A stretch of 51,509 nucleotides of DNA from a virus: positions 1-51,509 of IMG/VR virus record IMGVR_UViG_3300021197_001545; one strand, written 5' to 3'. A program made the position numbers and the translations under genes. A model generated the notes under the pieces. The model saw only the letters and a program-made list of their open reading frames with translations. It was not told the origin of the DNA and did not search any database. This document shows, one piece after another, positions 846 through 51,509 of this stretch. Position 1 is the stretch's first letter, and every line of letters begins with the position of its first letter.

Positions 846-2606
846 ATGTTCAACTTTAAGTTCATTTACTTCATCCTCATTACGCTGTGGTTTGTACAGT
901 TGGATGAGATGTTTGGTCAGGAGGAGTGCATTCAAATGCACACCAAGACACAGATCATGGGGCTCAAGAAGAGGGCCGATGTAAACCTTGAAGATGTACA
1001 GGTTCAGACACTACCCATTGTGTTTCATGTTGTGCATACTGGAGCGGGTGAGCCAAACAATATCTCTGATGAACAAATCCTTTCTCAGGTAGATGTACTG
1101 AACGAGGAGTTCGCTGACAGCAAGATTCAGTTCTGCATGGCTGTGCGTGACCCTGACGGCAACCCAACGAACGGGATAACTAGGTACGATGCCAGCTGGA
1201 ACGAGGACTACGTGACTGGGGGCATAGGCAACACCCCCTCAAATCTTGATCCAGTAGGGTGGGAGCAGACGCAGCTTAAGTCAGCGGCTGGGTGCTGGAA
1301 CCCTGACGAGTACATCAACTACTACGTAGTCTCAGAGATCAACGGTAATGACGGAAACAACGGGGTGCAAGGATTTGCATACCTAGGCCCCACGGGTGAC
1401 TGCAGAGATGGGGTTGTGGTCCTGTACAATGCTACGGGAACTGTAGGGGTGCAGAAGCCTGGAAGGACGTTGGGGTTTACAGGAGTCCACGAAGTGGGGC
1501 ACCACCTTTCTTTGTGGCATACGTTCTCCAACACATCCTCGTGCACTTCAGAAAGTAACTGCGAGACTCAAGGCGATCAGGTGTGTGACACCCCTACCAC
1601 TACCTCTAACTCCACAGCCCAGTGCGACGGTGGTGTGTGCCCAGACGCCCTCGTAAACAACTTCATGGACTACAGTTCTGAAACGTGCAAGGATGCCTTT
1701 ACCGTGGGTCAGGCTGAGCGCATGCACGAGATGCTGCAGGGCAGTAGACAAGGACTTGTAGACAACCTAGCGTGTGTGCCTGTCGTAGACTACGACGTAA
1801 CAGCAGGAGCCGCCTACTACCAACAAGAGTGGTGTGACCCATACCAAGACATCTGGGTTGATGTTATCAATCAGGGGACTCAGCTTATTCCTTTTGTAGA
1901 TGTAGAGATGTTTTGTAATGGGCCTCAGGAGGTGATCACTCTGTATGACCTACCGCCTGGATCTACTCAGGTGTTTTTTGAGGCAGTATACGTAGAGGGT
2001 GCTGACGAGTTTACCATCCAGACAATCTCTAGCCTTGACCAGTTCCCAGACAATGATGCCTCTTGGTGGCCCTTGGACGTTACAGAAGGAGATTTCATGG
2101 AGGTGTGGGTGACGCCTGATGTTTTTGGCAACGAGACGTCTTGGGAGCTGCGAGATGGAGAGGGGGAGATTGTACTGTCTGACGGTGGCTACGGAACCAA
2201 CAGCAACGAGACCTTCTACTATACAGCTTGTATATTCAATGACTGCTATGTGTTTGAGATAGAGGATACTGCAGGAGACGGTTTCTGCACTGTAGACTGG
2301 GATAATGACGGCGTGTGCGATATAGGTGGCGATGGAGTCCTTGCTACGGTTGGGCTTGATACATTGGTTGACACGGGCTTTGGATTGCAGTTTGATGTAA
2401 TTCAGTTCGAGTTCTGTAACTCACTGTCTCAGTGCAACATGGACTACAACGGTGACGGATACATTGGTAATACAGATGTGCTAGAGTTGCTCGTAGACAT
2501 AGGCTGCATTGGTGCCTGCTACACCGATCCCAACGATGACAATGTTGTAAACATCCAAGACCTGCTGCTCATGTTGGCAAGTACTGGTCCATGCCCCAAG
2601 GAATGA
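846..2606 (+). CDS. Secreted M43 (cytophagalysin/pappalysin-type) zinc metalloprotease with dockerin-like tail
   Basis: 586 aa. Residues about 5-20 form a hydrophobic signal sequence. The zinc-binding HEVGHHLSLWH is at 215-225 (H215, E216, H219, H225), followed by the Met-turn NNFMDYS with M274. This is the layout of M43 metalloproteases, which Bacteroidetes secrete. Paired cysteines around 233-281 fit family disulfides. Residues about 315-520 look like beta-sandwich modules. The last 57 residues hold two 12-residue dockerin/EF-like loops (DYNGDGYIGNTD and DPNDDNVVNIQD). Expected activity is extracellular cleavage of proteins; substrates are unknown. No T9SS sorting domain is visible at the end. 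The stop overlaps the ATG of the next gene (ATGA). Such a host-style enzyme is unusual in a phage and was probably captured from a host. Confidence 0.88.
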   Translation: MFNFKFIYFILITLWFVQLDEMFGQEECIQMHTKTQIMGLKKRADVNLEDVQVQTLPIVFHVVHTGAGEPNNISDEQILSQVDVLNEEFADSKIQFCMAVRDPDGNPTNGITRYDASWNEDYVTGGIGNTPSNLDPVGWEQTQLKSAAGCWNPDEYINYYVVSEINGNDGNNGVQGFAYLGPTGDCRDGVVVLYNATGTVGVQKPGRTLGFTGVHEVGHHLSLWHTFSNTSSCTSESNCETQGDQVCDTPTTTSNSTAQCDGGVCPDALVNNFMDYSSETCKDAFTVGQAERMHEMLQGSRQGLVDNLACVPVVDYDVTAGAAYYQQEWCDPYQDIWVDVINQGTQLIPFVDVEMFCNGPQEVITLYDLPPGSTQVFFEAVYVEGADEFTIQTISSLDQFPDNDASWWPLDVTEGDFMEVWVTPDVFGNETSWELRDGEGEIVLSDGGYGTNSNETFYYTACIFNDCYVFEIEDTAGDGFCTVDWDNDGVCDIGGDGVLATVGLDTLVDTGFGLQFDVIQFEFCNSLSQCNMDYNGDGYIGNTDVLELLVDIGCIGACYTDPNDDNVVNIQDLLLMLASTGPCPKE

Positions 2607-3538
2607 AAAAACTTATCTTCTTCCTCATACCTCTGCTCAGCTACGGGCAGTGTGATATAGAGATACTAGGATTCGATCCTATCTCCACGGACATCATGAT
2701 GGTTGTGAACGGAGGTGCTTGCTGCACTGAGTCTGACAGCATCGGAGAGTTCATCCTAGCCCTGGGGTTCAACCCTCCCCAGGACGAGAGTCCTTGGCCT
2801 TGCTTTGGGGATCAAGACTGGATGTTGTTGCTCTACCCTCTGGACTTCCCTGGCTTTGAGATAGGACAGGGTCCCGACAACATCTATCAGGCTGGAGATA
2901 CGATAGCCTTCAACATAGTTGAGGACACCCCGCTGGCTGGAAGTGGTACCCTACAGTGCTGGGAGCAAGCGCTTGAGGAGGGTATCTTCATGCAGGACTG
3001 CATGGTTATTACGGTGTGGCAGATCAACGATAGTGAGACTCTAGACGGTAGCTCCGCAGGTATTGCAGGTTGCGACTACCCAGACGAAGACATACCTAAC
3101 AGCTGGCTAGAGTTTTCTATGGAGGCTAACTGTGGACCGCCTCCTCCTCCCGTACCTAACGAGCCACAGCCTTGGGAGCCCGTAGAAACAACAGACACTA
3201 CCGATACTTCTGGACCTCCACCACCTGAGCCACCCAACATAGACGACTGCAAGGACCCGTGTATATACGTATCCAACGTCTTTACGCCTAACGGTGACTA
3301 CGTGAACGACACATGGAGGCCCGTTACAAAGCCTGACTGCTGGTGGAGATGGGAATGCAAGGTCTACAACCGATGGGGTGTTGTAGTGTGGGAAAGCTAT
3401 GACCCCCGTGACAAGTGGATGGGTGAGGGAGGCCTTTCCTATGTGCCTGACGGTGTTTACCTCTGGACGATCAGGGGGACTACCTACAGGTCAACCAAGG
3501 TTGTCAGTATGCAGGGGCATATAACGGTCTTCCGTTAA
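2603..3538 (+). CDS. Secreted protein with gliding-motility-associated (CHU_C-type) C-terminal domain
   Basis: 311 aa from the ATG at 2603, chosen because it gives a clean signal peptide (MKKLIFFLIPLLSYGQ) and an ATGA overlap with the protease stop; an in-frame ATG at 2591 is less likely. Residues about 17-180 form a Cys-containing beta domain of unknown function, followed by a Pro/Thr-rich linker. Residues about 220-311 match the gliding-motility-associated C-terminal domain: VFTPNGDYVNDTW, then VYNRWGVVVWES, then PDGVYLWTIRG. In Bacteroidetes this domain marks surface proteins exported by T9SS. The gene is translationally coupled to the protease, so the two products may act together at the cell surface or outside the cell. 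Confidence 0.85.
   Translation: MKKLIFFLIPLLSYGQCDIEILGFDPISTDIMMVVNGGACCTESDSIGEFILALGFNPPQDESPWPCFGDQDWMLLLYPLDFPGFEIGQGPDNIYQAGDTIAFNIVEDTPLAGSGTLQCWEQALEEGIFMQDCMVITVWQINDSETLDGSSAGIAGCDYPDEDIPNSWLEFSMEANCGPPPPPVPNEPQPWEPVETTDTTDTSGPPPPEPPNIDDCKDPCIYVSNVFTPNGDYVNDTWRPVTKPDCWWRWECKVYNRWGVVVWESYDPRDKWMGEGGLSYVPDGVYLWTIRGTTYRSTKVVSMQGHITVFR
3522..3537. terminator. Small hairpin across two convergent stop codons
   Basis: TAACGG and CCGTTA form a 6-bp stem with loop TCTT. It covers the stop codons of the plus gene (TAA 3536-3538) and the minus gene (TTA 3535-3537). A short A-run follows on the plus strand, but there is no good U-tract in either direction. This may be a weak bidirectional termination site. 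Confidence 0.3.
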
Positions 3539-4189: not shown

Positions 4190-5224
4190 TCAGATTATTA
4201 CGTAGTTAATGCCAATAGAGAAGTCGTGCCATGATCGGTCCCAGTACTTGTGGTACTTGCCCTCAGCAAACACGCCAAAACTCCTATTGAATCTTTTACC
4301 AAAGATAAGGCCTCCAGAATAATCCATCCATTGGTCGCTCTTTACGAAACGGTGGTAAGAGTATTCCCCGTCTGTGTCTACGTGGTAGGGGATCAGGTTG
4401 CCCCAGCTGTGCACCCAGAAGTCCTTTGTGAAGTGGTAGTAGTCAAACCCTACAACGAATGAATGCACCCATTGATCGGGAAGCTCACCTCTTTTTTTGT
4501 TTACGTAGTCGTCAAGTACCTGAGGCACAACTACTTCCTCCCACACTTCGTAACTGCTAGCCACAAGCTCACCCTGAGGGCTGAAGAACTCCCCTGTGTT
4601 GACGTCTATATTATAGCCCTCCTGTAGCGCCAAAGAGGTAAAGTGGAGCTGGTTGTTGTCCAGAACCCATTCGTTCAAAGGATCGTACCCGTATGGCTCT
4701 GAGAGGCGCTGCATGATGCCCGCATTCAATGACAGCTTACCTAGGTTGGCTCTCACCCTCTGCGAACCCTCGAAGTAGCTCACGTCCGCAAACCCGTCCT
4801 GAAGGTACTCTACCTTGGTGATCCATCGCTCACCCACGTACCGCAAGAAGTGGTCTTGGTCTAAGTAGTTGATTCCCTGCTGTCTACGGTAGTCACCCTC
4901 GAACAAGAACTCAAATCCTTTCACCTTACCTATCGTGGCAGCATCCCCGTAGGACTTTTCCGTGCCGTTGTAGAAGGTGTTGGCCCTGTTCTCGTATCCA
5001 AAGCGAGCGATCTTACGCACCCCAGCAGTGAACGAGTAGTCGAATGGTGTCTTGAGTACGTCTGTCTGTAGCCCGTTGCCCACAGAAAACACCTCTTGAT
5101 CTGATATAGAGTTGCCTCCGCTGAACGCTGTGTAGAATGTAGCGAACTTCAGGGCCTTCTTTACTGCCTGTCCTGATGCGCTGACGCTGACAAGAAGAAG
5201 CAGTAATGTTGCTACATATCTCAT
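4190..5224 (-). CDS. Outer-membrane beta-barrel-like protein
   Basis: 344 aa with a signal peptide (MRYVATLLLLLVSVSASGQ). The mature part alternates polar and aromatic/hydrophobic residues in amphipathic strands of about 10 residues, many ending in Tyr or Phe (for example FTAGVRKIARFGYE, FAEGKYHKYW, FSIGINYVII). This is typical of outer-membrane barrels. The last strand ends NYVII rather than the usual terminal Phe. In an infected cell it would be inserted in the outer membrane, perhaps to block superinfection or change the surface; a virion role is possible. The start overlaps the upstream stop as ATGA. Confidence 0.65.
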   Translation of the reverse strand: MRYVATLLLLLVSVSASGQAVKKALKFATFYTAFSGGNSISDQEVFSVGNGLQTDVLKTPFDYSFTAGVRKIARFGYENRANTFYNGTEKSYGDAATIGKVKGFEFLFEGDYRRQQGINYLDQDHFLRYVGERWITKVEYLQDGFADVSYFEGSQRVRANLGKLSLNAGIMQRLSEPYGYDPLNEWVLDNNQLHFTSLALQEGYNIDVNTGEFFSPQGELVASSYEVWEEVVVPQVLDDYVNKKRGELPDQWVHSFVVGFDYYHFTKDFWVHSWGNLIPYHVDTDGEYSYHRFVKSDQWMDYSGGLIFGKRFNRSFGVFAEGKYHKYWDRSWHDFSIGINYVII

Positions 5225-7644
5225 TGCTTGATGATTTTCTTTTTGACTCTTCTGTTCTCGTAGTCTATCACGAACATATATGCTCCGTCAGGCAAGTCAC
5301 CTAGGCTTATCACCTTGTCCTTTGTGGGGTCTATTACCTTCTGACCCAGTGAGTTGTATACTGTTGCAACAGCTCCTGCAGGGGACTGAATCCTTACTAT
5401 ATCTCTGGTTGGGTTGGGGTTCACCTCGCAGATGGTGTTGTCTAGGATCGTTACGTTGGTCACCCCGTCACCGCAGTACTCGTACAGGTTTATGCAGTAC
5501 GCATCCCATCCCACCTCACAGCAGTAGGGGTCTACCTCAATCACCCATGAGTAGCAGTAGTCGTTGGCCCAGTATGGTGATCCAGCACCCGTTACACAGC
5601 CAGCGTCATACACGCAGTCGTCAGCATCTGTGTTGGCCTCTTCGTTGTAGTTGTAGGCGTCGATGTCTAGGCAGCCCTCGATCACAGGGATGCAGGAGTC
5701 AATGTCTACGTTAGCCTCTGGGTCGTAGTTAAGTGCTTCAGGATCAGTGCATCCGAACAGAGCCAGCGTAACGCATGAACCGTCATCGTAGTCAGCCTCA
5801 AAGCCTTGCTCGTAGTACTCAAGGTACCCAGCCTGTGTGCAGCCCGCTGCGTAGTAGCATTCACTATCATCAATGTTCGCCACGCTGCTGTAGTTCTGAG
5901 CCGCTTCGTCTGTACATCCAGGGACAAATGGTTCGCACGTATTGCCGCAGTACGGAGTCACTGAGTAGGTGTTAGGGTATGGTACCATGCTCCACTGAGC
6001 CACGTCGATTAGCGTGTCCCCTGTAGGCCCCATCAGCATGAATCCACACTGCTCCACTTGGTTCTGTGACTGAGGAGTCGTAAAGAAGTAAATCTCAATC
6101 TCTTCCTCGGACGACAGGTAAACATCAAAGGACTCATCGTTACCATCGTTAGGCCCCATCTTGTACTGAGGTGAAGTCCATCCGTCTTGGTACACACCCA
6201 GCCAGCTGCCAAACCATCCGTCTCCCACCCCATCTGTAATAGTCAGAGTGTAGAAGCAAGAGTCTATGGCGTCCTCTGTGTTGGCCAGAGAGTCGTAGTT
6301 GAAGTAAGAGTCATCTATGCACCCATAGACCTTTAGTGTCTCACACAGTAGATCTACAGAGATGGTTGCGTCTGGGTTGTACTCAACGTAGTCTGGGTCA
6401 CCGCATCCCACCACATCATCTACATCCAAGCATAGAGGAGTAGCAAACTGAGACGACACGCTGTATCCAAAGTCAGCTACAGGTAGGGACCAAAGTGTAT
6501 CTCCACAGGCCTCAACCATAACGTATCCGTCCTGACCACCCCACTGTGAAGCCCCCATGCCGTCGCCGTAGCTGTCGTTAACGACAATCTCTAGCTCGTC
6601 GCCTGTAGTAGCACAAGTGGCAAACAGGAGGGGAACGCCTACAATGTCATCAGATAGCTGGCCTACAGACAGGTCTATAACTAGCTCGTCAGAGGTGACG
6701 TTCTGTATGGTGAAGCTCGTCTCTGATGGGTAGTTGTCGAGGATGAGGGTAGTGACTATCTCTGTCTCCCATGGCTCGCACTCAGCCCCTAAGCCTGCGC
6801 AAGAGCCGTTGTCGAAGTTAGCCCAGGGGTTCCAGTTGCTTGCGTTAGGGTTGACGCATCCTGGCACAGCCCCACAAGGCAGGCAGCTCTCCCAACAGAA
6901 AGGAGGTAGCGACACAGGACCATCAACTACGAGGTTTCTGTTTACATATCCAAACTCATCGAACAAAAAACAAGGAGACTCAAGAACACCTACTGGTTGT
7001 TCCTGAACCTCCCATTCGTCTGCAGAGAACTTCCATAGGTAGCTACCCTGCTGTATGGAAGCGGTAAGCTCCCACACCCCATCACCGTCATCATCGGTCA
7101 TCTGAGAACAACTGCCGCACCATGCGTTCCATGTACCGTTTACTTCGGGTATGTCTATCTCAGGCGGATGCGGTCCATTAAGATCCAGCCTAAATGTCAC
7201 ATCGTACTGGCAGTTTTCTCCATCAAAATATGCTTCAGGGTTGTAGTTGTTGGCTTCTGAGTCCATACAGTCTACAAGGGGTGGAGGGCAAGGTAGTACT
7301 TCGAACGGAATAGTAATCTGAGCCTGAGCAAAGTCATACACAAATGCACTGACACCACACGTATTCTCTATGCCAAACCACCCCTCTCCAAACTCACAGC
7401 AGATGCCGTCACCAAACTGATCGCTTACCACGAGGTTGTACTCCCCAACAGGAAGCACTACGAGTTGTTCGTTGTATGATGCGTTGACGAAGGGCCCAGC
7501 AGCAGCGTACACGCTGTCACTACCCACCATGTAGATTTCCCATGTGCTCTCGCCCCCATAGGCGTCGGCCTGGAACTCTACGTTTACCCAACCTGTCTGC
7601 GCTGTAGCAAACAGTGGCAATAGCATCAACAACAAACCTCTCAT
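5221..7644 (-). CDS. Large secreted repeat protein with T9SS type A sorting domain
   Basis: 807 aa. Residues 1-16 are a signal peptide (MRGLLLMLLPLFATAQ). A T9SS type A sorting domain ends the protein (about 738-807; NPNPTRD, then VYNSLGQKV, then LPDGAYMFVI). Between them lie at least eight copies of a Cys-bounded unit of the form GCxDxxAxNYxxxAxxDxxxC, for example GCTDPEALNYDPEANVD and GCLDIDAYNYNEEANTD. Residues about 150-240 (VNGTWNAWCGSC, GDGVWELT, YLWKFSAD) resemble a CBM20/glycogen-binding-type sandwich. Expected fate: export by the host T9SS and attachment at the cell surface or release. The function may be adhesive or carbohydrate-binding. The same Cys-bounded unit occurs in the phage tail protein at 24988-27897. 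Confidence 0.85.
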   Translation of the reverse strand: MRGLLLMLLPLFATAQTGWVNVEFQADAYGGESTWEIYMVGSDSVYAAAGPFVNASYNEQLVVLPVGEYNLVVSDQFGDGICCEFGEGWFGIENTCGVSAFVYDFAQAQITIPFEVLPCPPPLVDCMDSEANNYNPEAYFDGENCQYDVTFRLDLNGPHPPEIDIPEVNGTWNAWCGSCSQMTDDDGDGVWELTASIQQGSYLWKFSADEWEVQEQPVGVLESPCFLFDEFGYVNRNLVVDGPVSLPPFCWESCLPCGAVPGCVNPNASNWNPWANFDNGSCAGLGAECEPWETEIVTTLILDNYPSETSFTIQNVTSDELVIDLSVGQLSDDIVGVPLLFATCATTGDELEIVVNDSYGDGMGASQWGGQDGYVMVEACGDTLWSLPVADFGYSVSSQFATPLCLDVDDVVGCGDPDYVEYNPDATISVDLLCETLKVYGCIDDSYFNYDSLANTEDAIDSCFYTLTITDGVGDGWFGSWLGVYQDGWTSPQYKMGPNDGNDESFDVYLSSEEEIEIYFFTTPQSQNQVEQCGFMLMGPTGDTLIDVAQWSMVPYPNTYSVTPYCGNTCEPFVPGCTDEAAQNYSSVANIDDSECYYAAGCTQAGYLEYYEQGFEADYDDGSCVTLALFGCTDPEALNYDPEANVDIDSCIPVIEGCLDIDAYNYNEEANTDADDCVYDAGCVTGAGSPYWANDYCYSWVIEVDPYCCEVGWDAYCINLYEYCGDGVTNVTILDNTICEVNPNPTRDIVRIQSPAGAVATVYNSLGQKVIDPTKDKVISLGDLPDGAYMFVIDYENRRVKKKIIKQ

Positions 7645-37789: not shown

Positions 37790-38209
37790 TTAGACAGAAT
37801 CGTAATGCGTTACGTCTTCGTTTACCAAAAAGCTCCCCTGTACCCAAGTCTGAATAGAGCTATCGTCTTTTGCTGCTTGTATGTCGTAGACGTAGTTGCC
37901 TCCAGGGATGGCCTTCATGGGGGTGTCGTCAATAGTAATAGAAAGTTTTCCTGATGAACCTCCAGAGGTTGGATCTAACAATATGTCACCATAAACTCCA
38001 CTGCCAGACGTGGTGTCTGAAAGCAAAGGGGTGTTGCTGTCATCCTCATCACTGCTTCTTACGTGCATGTGAAAAGTATATCCAGAATTGATGGGAATAG
38101 TTACATTAGAATTTGAGCTGTCCCTAAAAGTTATGTCTATAGCAAAAGTGTCACCTCTGCGACATGTGATGTCAAGGGTTTGAGCTATATCTGTGTTTAT
38201 ACTAGCCAT
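37790..38209 (-). CDS. Fibre-base or upper-baseplate-like protein
   Basis: 139 aa. CRRGDTFAIDITFRDSSN, then GYTFHMHVRSS, then GKLSITIDD and GNYVYDIQAA follow the pattern of BppU-N-type domains: GDT, a strand with ITF, then a strand with mxVR. These connect receptor-binding proteins to the phage body. It lies between the portal and the LamG fibre gene and is coupled to both (TAATG with the portal, adjacent stop-start with the fibre). Confidence 0.6.
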   Translation of the reverse strand: MASINTDIAQTLDITCRRGDTFAIDITFRDSSNSNVTIPINSGYTFHMHVRSSDEDDSNTPLLSDTTSGSGVYGDILLDPTSGGSSGKLSITIDDTPMKAIPGGNYVYDIQAAKDDSSIQTWVQGSFLVNEDVTHYDSV

Positions 38210-40656
38210 TACAGGTTAAATATTTCGTTGATGGATTTTTCTTTTTGCACCTCAGGAAGTTCACCCCTCTCGCCCTTTCTCTGAGACATAAGCTTAGACT
38301 GCTCTGTAGCCTGCTTCTTTACCCTGTCGTCCTTTCTGTCCTCTTTCAACACCTCTATCTTCTCCTTAAACTCCTGATCGTCAGTTTTGAATCCAAGGGT
38401 AGCCTGAGCTCTTATCATCTCTATCTCCTTGCGGAACTCATGAAGAGCTGTAGCCACCTGAACCTCAGACTGCGCCTTGAGCTGAATCTTCTGAGCTTCT
38501 ATCTGAGCTTCCATCTGTGCCTGCTGAGCAGCCATCTGAGCCGTAGCCTGCTGTTGCTGCATAGCCATCTGCTGTTGCTGCTGAGCTTGAGCTTGTTGTA
38601 GCTGCTGAGCCTCAGCCTTGCGCTTCTTTCTTCTTACCACAAGAAGCCTTTCTGCTTGATCGACGTTCTTTAGTTCTCTTATCGCAATAGCATCTTCAAG
38701 ATCTATTTCTTTCTGACCTAGAGATATCTGAATCATCTGCTCTACAGCGACTCTCTCCTGATCCTCCATCTCCTTGACAACGATAACGCCGAAGTTGTAC
38801 ATAGGCATATCGTCAAAGGAAGAAAGGACTTCCATATTGGCACTGCCAATGGCTTCTTTGTATGCGTTAAATATGACAGACTCCTGAGGTAGGATCTGAA
38901 CACACTTTATGATATCGCTACAGACTCTCTTGAAAAGAACCATTGAGCAATCAGTGATGTTGTAGATAGCATTGTTGCCCGCCTTAATAGCATTCTGCTG
39001 AACCCCCACCAAGGTCTCTCCCTTGGGGGTGGTACCATCCATCATCTCATTGATACCAGTGGCATCTCTGATAAGCTTTAGGTAGTGATTGTATATACCT
39101 ATCAGCTCATTGATGTTTCGGATGCTGTTGCCTATCTCCCTAATTGGTGGGTTTTGGAATCCGCCCTCAGGGTTCTTACTTCTGTAATAGAAGACACCAG
39201 TCTGCTCGTAGATATCGTGTAGCTCAAGAGGTTGCAATTCTCCGCCCTTTCCGAGCTGTACGTTTTCCAATCCCTCGATGTCGATGATGAGACCGTCAGG
39301 CTTCGCCTTTGCAATAGCTTGTTGAATCTTAAGGTGAGTGAGCTGAAGCATATCAGCAAAACCCACACATCCGTCAACCAATGACTTAGGCATCATGTCC
39401 TGCATATTGGTAGATATGCAAGAGTAAGAAAGGGTAGCTCTAGTTAGGTCCTGAGCATTCTTGGGGACGTTCTTTTTGCGACCGTAGTCAAAGAGTATCC
39501 CTGCCCCCAAAACGTAATATCCTCCATACAGGGTCTCTACCTCCATCTTATGAGGAGTGCGATCGAAAACGCTCCCTGCTTTTTCCTTGTACTCGTAACC
39601 TTTGTAGTAGAAGCCCATATTACCAAATCGGCTTTCCTTCTCTTCAAAGTAGATGCAGTCTACTGACTTGAACTCAAACTCCAACACATCAACTAGATAC
39701 TCGTCGTATCCATAGTCCATTGTGTTCGTGAGATTGTTTCTAGACTTTTTATAAAGACTAGAAGAGTTGTTCCCGTACTTGCCAGAGACATTATTGGCAA
39801 TCTTAGAAATTTGCTTTTCGTCTATCTCTCCAGCCGAGAGGCGGCGGAGCTCAGATATAGATATCTTCTTTACATGACCAGCATAAACAAGGTCACCCAT
39901 ATTGGGATCTTCCGTTTGGCTATGAACAAAGTCAGAGGGGTCAACGTACTCGGTTACAATCCCATAGTTGGGATCGTTAGATCTCTTTACAACTGCAAGC
40001 CCGCAGGACACAAGGTCATTTACGCAGCGCCTAAAGGTTGTGTCATTAAAGTCGTTCCACTCAAGAGTCATGGTAGCTGCCATCTGAGCAGCTATTTCGG
40101 CATCGGTTTTAATGCTGGTGCCGAGGAAGATCTCAGCCTCTTCGAGGGTGTCTGGAATGGTAGAAGGGTCTGGACCTATAGTCATACCAGTCTTCTCCTT
40201 TACCTTCATAAGCTCGGCTTTAGCTACAACAGCAGCCTCAAGCTTCTTCTTCTCCATGTCCTTCTTTGTGGAGGACAAGGGGTCAATAGCCTCTACGTTA
40301 GGCTGAGGCTTTCTAGAAAGGACGTTGTTTACAACGATCCTAACAAACTTGGGAAGGATGGGTACGGGAGTAAAGTCTAGGTTTAGCAGCGTACCATCAG
40401 CTCCGTTAGGGTTTAGGGACGTAAGAAGTTTTCTGTAAATAGATGTTTCTTGGGTACCGTTAGCGTACTTCTTGTTCTTTTCGAACATATCGTACCTCCT
40501 CTTAAATATAGACCCGCTATCCTGAACACTACCCCACTGCTTCTCTATAGCCTTTGCAAAATTCTCACCGTACTTCTTTGACTCTTTCTCCTCTGCAGAC
40601 GCCAACGGGTTCGGAAAGTTTTTTGACCCAGACTTATTTTTGTTTTCTCCGTACAT
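38209..40656 (-). CDS. Portal protein
   Basis: 815 aa. The size, helical character and position between terminase and capsid genes fit a portal. Blocks such as PKFVRIVVNNVLSRKPQPNV, EYVDPSDFVHSQTEDPNMGD and IRDATGINEMMDGTTPKGET match portals of crAss-like and flavobacterial podoviruses. The C-terminus (about 685-790) is an unusual Gln/Ala-rich coiled coil followed by a charged tail, which probably projects from the clip or crown into the capsid. Upstream is a TATATTTG box. Confidence 0.8.
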   Translation of the reverse strand: MYGENKNKSGSKNFPNPLASAEEKESKKYGENFAKAIEKQWGSVQDSGSIFKRRYDMFEKNKKYANGTQETSIYRKLLTSLNPNGADGTLLNLDFTPVPILPKFVRIVVNNVLSRKPQPNVEAIDPLSSTKKDMEKKKLEAAVVAKAELMKVKEKTGMTIGPDPSTIPDTLEEAEIFLGTSIKTDAEIAAQMAATMTLEWNDFNDTTFRRCVNDLVSCGLAVVKRSNDPNYGIVTEYVDPSDFVHSQTEDPNMGDLVYAGHVKKISISELRRLSAGEIDEKQISKIANNVSGKYGNNSSSLYKKSRNNLTNTMDYGYDEYLVDVLEFEFKSVDCIYFEEKESRFGNMGFYYKGYEYKEKAGSVFDRTPHKMEVETLYGGYYVLGAGILFDYGRKKNVPKNAQDLTRATLSYSCISTNMQDMMPKSLVDGCVGFADMLQLTHLKIQQAIAKAKPDGLIIDIEGLENVQLGKGGELQPLELHDIYEQTGVFYYRSKNPEGGFQNPPIREIGNSIRNINELIGIYNHYLKLIRDATGINEMMDGTTPKGETLVGVQQNAIKAGNNAIYNITDCSMVLFKRVCSDIIKCVQILPQESVIFNAYKEAIGSANMEVLSSFDDMPMYNFGVIVVKEMEDQERVAVEQMIQISLGQKEIDLEDAIAIRELKNVDQAERLLVVRRKKRKAEAQQLQQAQAQQQQQMAMQQQQATAQMAAQQAQMEAQIEAQKIQLKAQSEVQVATALHEFRKEIEMIRAQATLGFKTDDQEFKEKIEVLKEDRKDDRVKKQATEQSKLMSQRKGERGELPEVQKEKSINEIFNL

Positions 40657-49912: not shown

Positions 49913-50017
49913 GCTTAGATACTACTATTCCCGCGCCATAAACATAAAGGACTCCTCTGTGTAAACAGAAAAAACATTCTTAGAAGCCTATCCCTTTTAG
50001 AGTCGCTTGATATGCCG

Positions 50018-50048
50018 TAAAGGTATAAACAAAATTCTTAAAAGTCAA
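50018..50048 (-). promoter_or_regulatory. Host-type two-part promoter for the 49912 gene
   Basis: On the minus strand TTGAC (50048-50044) and TACCTTTA (50025-50018) are separated so that TTG and TACC lie 20 bases apart, close to the Bacteroidetes -33/-7 arrangement; the last base differs from TAnnTTTG. Transcription would start about 100 bases before the ATG at 49912. The rest of the 49913-50090 gap is AT-rich. It holds a 6-codon frame (49945 to 49925) preceded by AGGAG, and nothing else I can support. Confidence 0.6.
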
Positions 50049-50572: not shown

Positions 50573-50978
50573 CCCAAAAAAAGAAGGGAGTTATATAGAG
50601 GGTGGGGATTATATATGTATATGAGCGGTCTACGCCGCCAACCGAAACGAAGTTTCGATAACCCTCTCGGCAACTTTACAGCGTTTACGCTGTAACTTTT
50701 AGCTTTTTGCCTGACTTACAGTCAGTTAGCTTGGTTTACTTCTACCGTTGGTAGAAGGTCTGTGCAGGCAGTCGTTGCTCCGAAGGAGAGGACAATCCCC
50801 CAACTACGTTGACTTGAAGCTACGAACCACCCCTTAACGGGGTGACAAATCAAACCGAATCGAGGCTCTTCATGCGCAGCTAATGTACGAGGATAACTTG
50901 TTATCCTTCAATGTGTTAGCTGGCTTCAACTCTACTACTACTAACGTAGTTAGTTGTAGTAAAAATCAGGGAGATAGA

Positions 50979-51030
50979 GTTGTAGTATAAGAGAGAAGAA
51001 GTCTTATGACTTCTCTCTTATACTACTAAC
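50979..51030. repeat. Long imperfect hairpin (about 22 bp)
   Basis: Left arm 50979-51003 and right arm 51008-51030 pair around a TTAT loop, with a 3-base bulge on the left and a 1-base bulge on the right. It is the largest fold in the array and is centred about 85 bases before the start of the Lys/Ala-rich gene. Its outer sequence (GTTGTAGTA / TACTACTAAC) is also related to the hairpin at 50934-50960, so alternative pairings are possible. Confidence 0.75.
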
Positions 51031-51077
51031 TCCTAAAGGGTTTGAGAAGTCGTCCTTTAGGAAGTCAAACTTCATTA

Positions 51078-51094
51078 ATTCATTTCCAATGAAT
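51078..51094 (+). promoter_or_regulatory. Hairpin enclosing the start codon of the Lys/Ala-rich gene
   Basis: ATTCATT (51078-51084) and AATGAAT (51088-51094) form a perfect 7-bp stem with loop TCC. The ATG at 51089-51091 lies inside the right arm. In the mRNA this would hide the start codon, so translation could depend on a protein or on an alternative fold of the upstream array. Confidence 0.5.
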
Positions 51095-51509
51095 AGTTTC
51101 AATTTCTCCGACTGCCGTAAGGCAGTTAACCAAGCTTCTTTCCGTCCAACAAAGAGCCGAAAGGCTCTTGCTTCAAAGCTTCTTGCAGAAGCTTTAGAGT
51201 TCGTCGCTAACCTCGAAGAGGTTAAAGAGCCTTCGAAGAAGGCTAAGAAGTCTAGACGTAAGTCTAGAAAGAAAGCAACCCCAACTCAGAGAGTTGCTGA
51301 CAGTCAAGAAAAAGCCTTTCATGGAAAGGCTGACAGTCCAGTCAAGCCTTCGAAGAAGGCAAAGACAGCTTCCGTTAAGGAAGCTAAAGCATCTCTGAAA
51401 GAGATGGATGAGAAGAAAGCCGTCAAGAAGTCAGCGAAGCTGAAGGCCAAAGCAGTGGCTTCAGGGGTCAACGAAGTTGACAGAGTAGCTTCCTTGGAAG
51501 CTAAAATCG
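51089..51509 (+). CDS. Lys/Ala-rich protein, 3' end beyond the window
   Basis: 140 open codons from the ATG at 51089 to the edge, no stop. After a first part with SDCRKAVNQASF and ALASKLLAEALEFVANLEEV, the sequence becomes Lys/Ala/Ser/Glu-rich (KKAKKSRRKSRKKA, PSKKAK twice, VKKSAKLKAKAVASG), like histone H1-type tails or nucleoid proteins. The hairpin array runs through the whole coding part. Loops fall in more than one codon phase, so the hairpins are not a simple by-product of repeated codons. The reading frame could instead be fortuitous within a structured RNA, but codon content favours a real gene. No TAnnTTTG box was found upstream. Confidence 0.6.
   Translation, partial: MNSFNFSDCRKAVNQASFRPTKSRKALASKLLAEALEFVANLEEVKEPSKKAKKSRRKSRKKATPTQRVADSQEKAFHGKADSPVKPSKKAKTASVKEAKASLKEMDEKKAVKKSAKLKAKAVASGVNEVDRVASLEAKI

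Follow-up and report, generated by a model that had tools for sequence, protein, structure and literature searches.

The window, that is, the whole stretch of 51,509 nucleotides analysed here, is an entire single virus contig (IMG/VR record IMGVR_UViG_3300021197_001545). Its terminase, portal and virion genes place the virus among podophages of Bacteroidota, as a distant relation of Flavobacterium phage elemo and of Cellulophaga phages (one virion protein is about 30% identical). From about 50.57 kb down to 3.5 kb the genes point leftward, while a rightward ORF starts at 51089 and is truncated by the contig end; the initial annotation was correct in placing a divergence point between leftward and rightward transcription here. 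Near the opposite end of the window (846-2606 and 2591-3538, plus strand; 5221-7644, minus strand) lie genes for an M43-type metallopeptidase, a CHU_C secretion signal gene and a Por_Secre_tail protein, which are host type-IX-secretion-like proteins carried by the phage. The features around the divergence point are as follows, relatives being called dense or sparse according to their hairpins:

50014..50048, minus strand: putative host-type leftward promoter, TTGACTTTTAAGAATTTTGTTTATACCTTTACGGC (sequence and alignment)
50602..50619, plus strand: conserved boundary element GTGGGGATTATATATGTA, a G-rich block and an A+T run (present at 26 dense loci and most of 24 sparse loci)
50643..51014, no strand: non-coding part of the array, with 8 perfect mini-hairpins starting at 50643, 50676, 50711, 50739, 50828, 50890, 50940 and 50997 (hairpin scan; relatives have homologous hairpins with altered stems)
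50790..50799, no strand: second conserved block, GGACAATCCC (alignment with relatives)
50982..51026, no strand: long interrupted hairpin GTAGTATAAGAG...CTCTTATACTAC, directly before the ORF (sequence and long-stem scan)
51078..51503, no strand: part of the array overlapping the ORF start and lying inside the ORF, with 14 perfect mini-hairpins starting from 51078 to 51486 (hairpin scan)
51089..51508, plus strand: ORF of 140 aa (cut by the contig end) for a lysine-rich protein

The array is far outside what chance would produce. Scanning for arms of at least 6 bases and loops of 2-6 bases recovers 22 perfect hairpins in the 861 bp from 50643 to 51503, with starts between 50643 and 51486, which is exactly the number of perfect inverted repeats first reported for about 860 bp. 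Two checks proposed at that stage were run and bear out the excess: dinucleotide shuffles of the region retain 1.47 +/- 1.18 hairpins (maximum 7, n=500), and elsewhere in the contig an 860-bp window holds 1.34 on average and 5 at most. Chance or base composition as a cause is thereby ruled out; the expectation of 0.8 originally given had the right order of magnitude and was slightly low. The weaker or longer hairpins mentioned alongside the perfect ones are also present, such as the interrupted hairpin at about 50982-51026. The stems are mutually distinct along the array and no tandem repeat was found in the region, so that neither a tandem nor a dispersed repeat family accounts for it. Regular spacing or phasing can likewise be discarded, the coefficient of variation of the spacing being 0.61 vs 0.59 for random placement.

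In the window, 11 of the 22 loops are of the G..A type (GAA six times, GTAA twice, and GTA, GAAA and GTTAA), and the closing pairs are C-G in 17 and T-A in 5, with a 5' purine in none. The conserved loop type proposed by the initial annotation is therefore half right: G..A loops do make up half of the set in the window, but relatives keep the closing-pair rule and not one loop. Across relatives, the robust statement is that loops of 2-3 nt are closed by a 5' pyrimidine and a 3' purine.

The left edge of the array is set by the boundary element (GTGGGGATTATATATA, at 50602 in the window), which is conserved and single-copy. In the relatives checked there is one copy per genome, the two matches in the G018 genome being the terminal overlap of its circular map. 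Hairpins begin about 25-40 bp to the right of the element, and no part of the array lies to its left. The mean over 26 dense loci is 0.1-0.5 hairpins per 200 bp left of the element, 3.2 at 0-200 bp to its right and a maximum of 6.6 at 600-800 bp, within the ORF; beyond 2 kb the density is back at background. In relatives, the array extends beyond the point where the present contig ends. This extension, the start at the element and the overlap with an ORF had escaped the initial annotation. Among dense loci, 21 of 26 carry the second conserved block 180-220 bp to the right of the element; among sparse loci, 9 of 24 do. Read as its reverse complement, GGGATTGTCC, the block is similar to the GGGGATT within the boundary element. 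The two blocks, GGGGATTATA at 50602-50619 and GGGATTGTCC in reverse at 50790-50799, are thus opposed and about 180-200 bp apart, like paired binding sites. On the left arm of the divergence, the TTGACTTTTAAGAATTTTGTTTATACCTTTACGGC site is kept in relatives and has no hairpins around it; it seems to resemble the Bacteroidota TTG/TAnnTTTG promoter and is probably a leftward host-type promoter.

Long hairpins form a class apart. In relatives, several early genes are preceded by stems of 16-21 bp whose mismatches always fall at the same position, frequently as two near-identical copies per genome (e.g. at +1319 and +2380 from the element in L164, and at +1026 and +2209 in L095). In the long-stem scan, G-T outnumbers A-C by 34 to 18, unlike in the mini-hairpins. 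On this pattern the long hairpins look RNA-like, and they may serve as processing, termination or promoter elements.

The right half of the array falls inside the ORF for the lysine-rich protein, which measures 166-205 aa in relatives and is mostly helical (AlphaFold model with a mean pLDDT of 70, confident only for two N-terminal helices). No relatives of the protein were found in Pfam, PHROG, phage records (isolate phages included) or bacterial genomes. Its codons carry the hairpins by choice: 13 lie wholly within the window ORF, against 1.7 +/- 1.2 after synonymous codon permutation with the protein held fixed, and in nine homologues 10-17 are present against 1.2-2.1 left after permutation, an enrichment in all nine. 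Protein-coding constraint is therefore ruled out as the cause of the array. As separate observations, the portal gene of the window (38209-40656, minus strand) has 8 perfect hairpins vs 1.8 +/- 1.3 after the same permutation, and the alleles of the lysine-rich protein (ORFs of L084-L106, alignment A1) are freely recombined mosaics of alternative modules, for example AFHGKADSP vs ALKTNEVGP or ASLKEMDEK vs ASAKAVSEATG; the hairpins could mark exchange points between such modules. Two sparse relatives, L124 and L125, keep the element, but the small basic first protein encoded in the same place (about 72 aa) is a different one.

The array is a recurrent feature of a lineage. Searching IMG/VR with the ORF product returned 23 contigs from many samples, all of them with the array, and a search with the conserved element returned 108 contigs, of which about 40% are hairpin-dense and the others grade down to none. 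More than 25 independent contigs, from related and uncultured podophages of marine-type Bacteroidota, have the array. Its recurrence in many independent metagenome contigs rules out an assembly artefact. Among 18 complete or near-complete genomes, 4 are hairpin-dense, each with a single array immediately to the right of the element; its density is 22-26 hairpins per kb, against 5-8 in the next densest kb. Many relatives have the same element with few hairpins, and the array is thus not essential to the element's role. Neither element nor array occurs in the scanned part of the elemo phage, and a pattern search of bacterial genomes gave a single match, in Campylobacter, at about chance level. 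About 18 of the 23 array contigs (those of L085-L105) end within about 4 kb right of the array. The frequency of such ends first suggested a fixed genome terminus, an idea that was dropped because near-complete contigs break at other positions and the G018 genome is circularly closed; with breaks elsewhere in several near-complete contigs, the ends probably reflect assembly breakage in a variable early region.

Relatives also make it possible to ask how the stems change. In 21 close pairs, 9.5% of the columns outside stems are substituted, whereas stem columns show 2.65% uncompensated and 2.4% compensated change. Loss of pairing is therefore 3.6-fold rarer than change elsewhere, about half of the stem changes are compensated, and stem changes of both kinds together (5.1%) reach about half the level seen outside stems. 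Leader and ORF agree in this pattern. At degenerate third positions, sites lying in a stem in either homologue differ at 0.24 and sites outside stems at 0.31, and hairpins are retained at homologous codons of divergent proteins. A single site can carry quite different stems, as GAGATAACttGTTATCTC, GATACAACttGTTGTATC and GATAACgaGTTATC do in alignment A2. Compensatory stem changes, which the initial annotation had suggested looking for, are thus present, and the selection on shape that it had proposed is supported by compensation, by the protected stems and by codon choice.

How much of this is mutation? Template switching is known to homogenise the arms of inverted repeats and to invert their spacers (PMC8604942, PMC8794818), and in a yeast assay quasi-palindrome events were observed only under high transcription (PMC3820800). 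Both spacer inversion and arm homogenisation are seen at the array. Among homologous hairpins, 16 pairs have 3-nt loops that differ at every position, and in 7 of these one loop is the exact reverse complement of the other (P 0.013 with the loop pool as null; 2-nt loops are uninformative); moreover, the compensated changes include transversions and clusters of 2-3 adjacent pairs. The loop inversions fit the footprint of template switching on folded DNA, which makes it likely that the array folds in vivo and means that part of the stem compensation may be mutational. Taken to its limit, this would make the array a by-product: in a strongly transcribed or often single-stranded stretch, template switching would perfect arms and flip loops, and the hairpins would have no function of their own. 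The onset at a promoter-like element and the decay thereafter would suit such an origin. However, pure homogenisation predicts near-neutral compensated change, whereas total stem change is well below the outside rate, which argues that selection acts alongside mutation; nor does it account for the depletion of uncompensated change, the persistence of hairpins at homologous codons of divergent proteins or the sparse relatives that have the same element without hairpins. We regard a purely mutational array as unlikely.

Another rival reading is a long structured RNA, in which leader and first early gene mRNA would form small stem-loops for stability, regulation or evasion; a large structured RNA was among the initial suggestions. 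Helices kept as RNA should tolerate G-U over A-C, and compensation via G-U favours transitions. Neither is seen here. Broken pairs in the 21 close pairs are G-T in 14 cases and A-C in 14, mismatches in the ORF alignment are G-T in 99 and A-C in 183, and unique one-mismatch hairpins have 5 and 7, respectively; the 51 compensated changes comprise 23 transitions and 28 transversions. Loops of at most 3 nt account for 81% (background 45%), too short for a structured RNA, and closing by 5' pyrimidine and 3' purine for 94% (background 51%, P 3e-47). The d(C-GNA-G) and C-TT-G mini-loops are unusually stable in DNA. Moreover, the antisense strand folds equally well, with RNA fold z-scores of -9.3 and -9.2 and DNA fold z-scores of -13.6 and -11.7 on the two strands, and leader loops occur in both orientations (T..C 35 and G..A 18; TT 24 and AA 21). 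No Rfam family matches the array at gathering scores; the best weak match, BTnc231, falls in the area of the long hairpin and scores 30 of 80 bits. It is true that the hairpins begin just right of a promoter-like element and follow the early operon, that one RNA fold z-score reaches -9.3, that GTAA and GAAA are RNA-type tetraloops and that long RNA-like hairpins precede early genes. Yet the lack of a G-T preference over A-C, the compensation by transversion, the short loops, the pyrimidine/purine closing and the equal folding of both strands make us fairly confident that the array folds as DNA, and a structured RNA is quite improbable.

A third possibility is that the hairpins are a binding array for the lysine-rich protein or another hairpin-reading phage protein, with a role in segregation, in organising the nucleoid or in decoying host nucleases. 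The hairpins do sit within and ahead of a gene that encodes a basic protein, and a DnaA-like gene tracks their density (4 of 4 dense, 5 of 6 intermediate and 1-2 of 8 sparse genomes). On the other hand, such gene correlations follow phylogeny, the contrast of gene content between dense and sparse genomes yielding clade-linked genes only; relatives keep small basic first genes without hairpins, and the model of the lysine-rich protein shows no DNA-binding fold. We consider this reading distinctly improbable.

Least probable of all is that the array consists of multiplied hairpins at which an injected RNA polymerase of the N4 type would load or start transcription. In favour of this, the virus is a podophage and encodes giant virion proteins, C-GAA-G is the commonest loop in the ORF, and the promoters of N4 are hairpins extruded from DNA, with a sheared G-A pair in their 3-base loop and with non-conserved stem bases that need only pair (PMC4496689). 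Against it, the giant virion proteins of the window and of the G002 genome have no family, solved-structure or motif match to an RNA polymerase, the strand of G..A loops differs between leader and ORF, no stem, loop or start-site bases are conserved at a fixed distance (only the closing-pair rule and a weak A preference at -3, with random spacing), and 25 promoters in 1 kb would be pointless. The Pfam model of the virion RNA polymerase matched nowhere and is uninformative, and a very divergent enzyme may have escaped these searches; the N4-type promoter mentioned at the outset is left with no detectable polymerase.

The best explanation is that a lineage of Bacteroidota podophages has a locus acting in cis through DNA structure, with about 22-27 short hairpins folding in DNA. 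More specifically, we infer an origin/early-promoter locus whose hairpins serve as priming or loading sites, and give this reading a probability of roughly 0.4. The early genes right of the array encode a DnaA domain-IV-like protein, a primase-DnaB helicase, a RecE-like exonuclease and a Holliday-junction resolvase-like protein; in L115, an early gene (4614-5054, plus strand) has the C-terminal, box-binding domain of DnaA. The element is single-copy, includes the ATTATATATA run and lies near these replication genes. Such a unique A+T-rich element agrees with an origin, as a consistent observation and not as proof, and the element could equally be only a promoter. GC-skew turning points match transcription direction and do not discriminate an origin. 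Of the initial proposals, an origin-like or hairpin-reading DNA locus remains the best fit as a putative one, for which the analysis yielded no binding protein or activity.

In the proposed mechanism, both replication and early rightward transcription would begin at the element, with its A+T-rich part acting as an unwinding site. It might open by forming an R-loop in the manner of T4 oriF; there, a transcript pairs within an A+T-rich stretch and the other strand is left single (PMC3016281). The strand exposed right of the element would then fold into mini-hairpins acting by their shape and position and not by their sequence. Most likely they would prime or load the phage primase-helicase, and they might also fence the strand against single-strand binding or annealing proteins. 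Template switching on the folded strand would re-perfect arms, and selection would remove broken hairpins.

The array matches no described genetic element. It is not a known RNA, repeat family or ordinary origin, and our literature searches found no description of such a hairpin array. Whether it represents a new type of viral DNA element, a sequence-free, shape-conserved mini-hairpin array spread over a control region and a gene and folded as single-stranded DNA at the start of replication and early expression, we put at slightly under an even chance. If true, this would be evidence that secondary structure of DNA can itself be selected for and inherited beyond isolated promoters or origins. 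The significance lies in dozens of distinct hairpins per kb, in compensation at the DNA level and in a constraint imposed on the codon choice of an overlapping gene. The array also offers a natural system in which to locate single-stranded stretches of phage DNA in the cell and to tell selection and template switching apart as causes of perfect hairpins.

Several known systems share part of this description. REP/BIME and Rickettsia palindromic elements are families of palindromes, some of them inside coding genes; their copies share sequence, whereas the stems of the array differ almost everywhere. The complementary-strand origins of phages G4 and M13 and the sso of plasmids use folded single-stranded DNA for priming, as proposed here, but have one to a few hairpins, sequence-specific recognition and a single-stranded DNA replicon. 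The R-loop origins oriF and oriG of T4 (PMC3016281) resemble the locus in their promoter-like element, A+T-rich unwinding stretch and downstream exposed strand giving access to the primosome; no hairpin array is described there, and the present locus is a putative origin. Coliphage N4 promoters have in common with the array short DNA hairpins, loops of about 3 nt, partly free stems and a place in a podophage early region, but they are three promoters with conserved bases (PMC4496689), against about 25 dissimilar hairpins per kb, partly intragenic and with no polymerase found. Finally, known template-switch sites (PMC8604942, PMC8794818) show the same perfected arms, loop inversions and multinucleotide compensated changes; those are scattered single events, whereas the array is dense, conserved and bound to one locus, with its stems protected.
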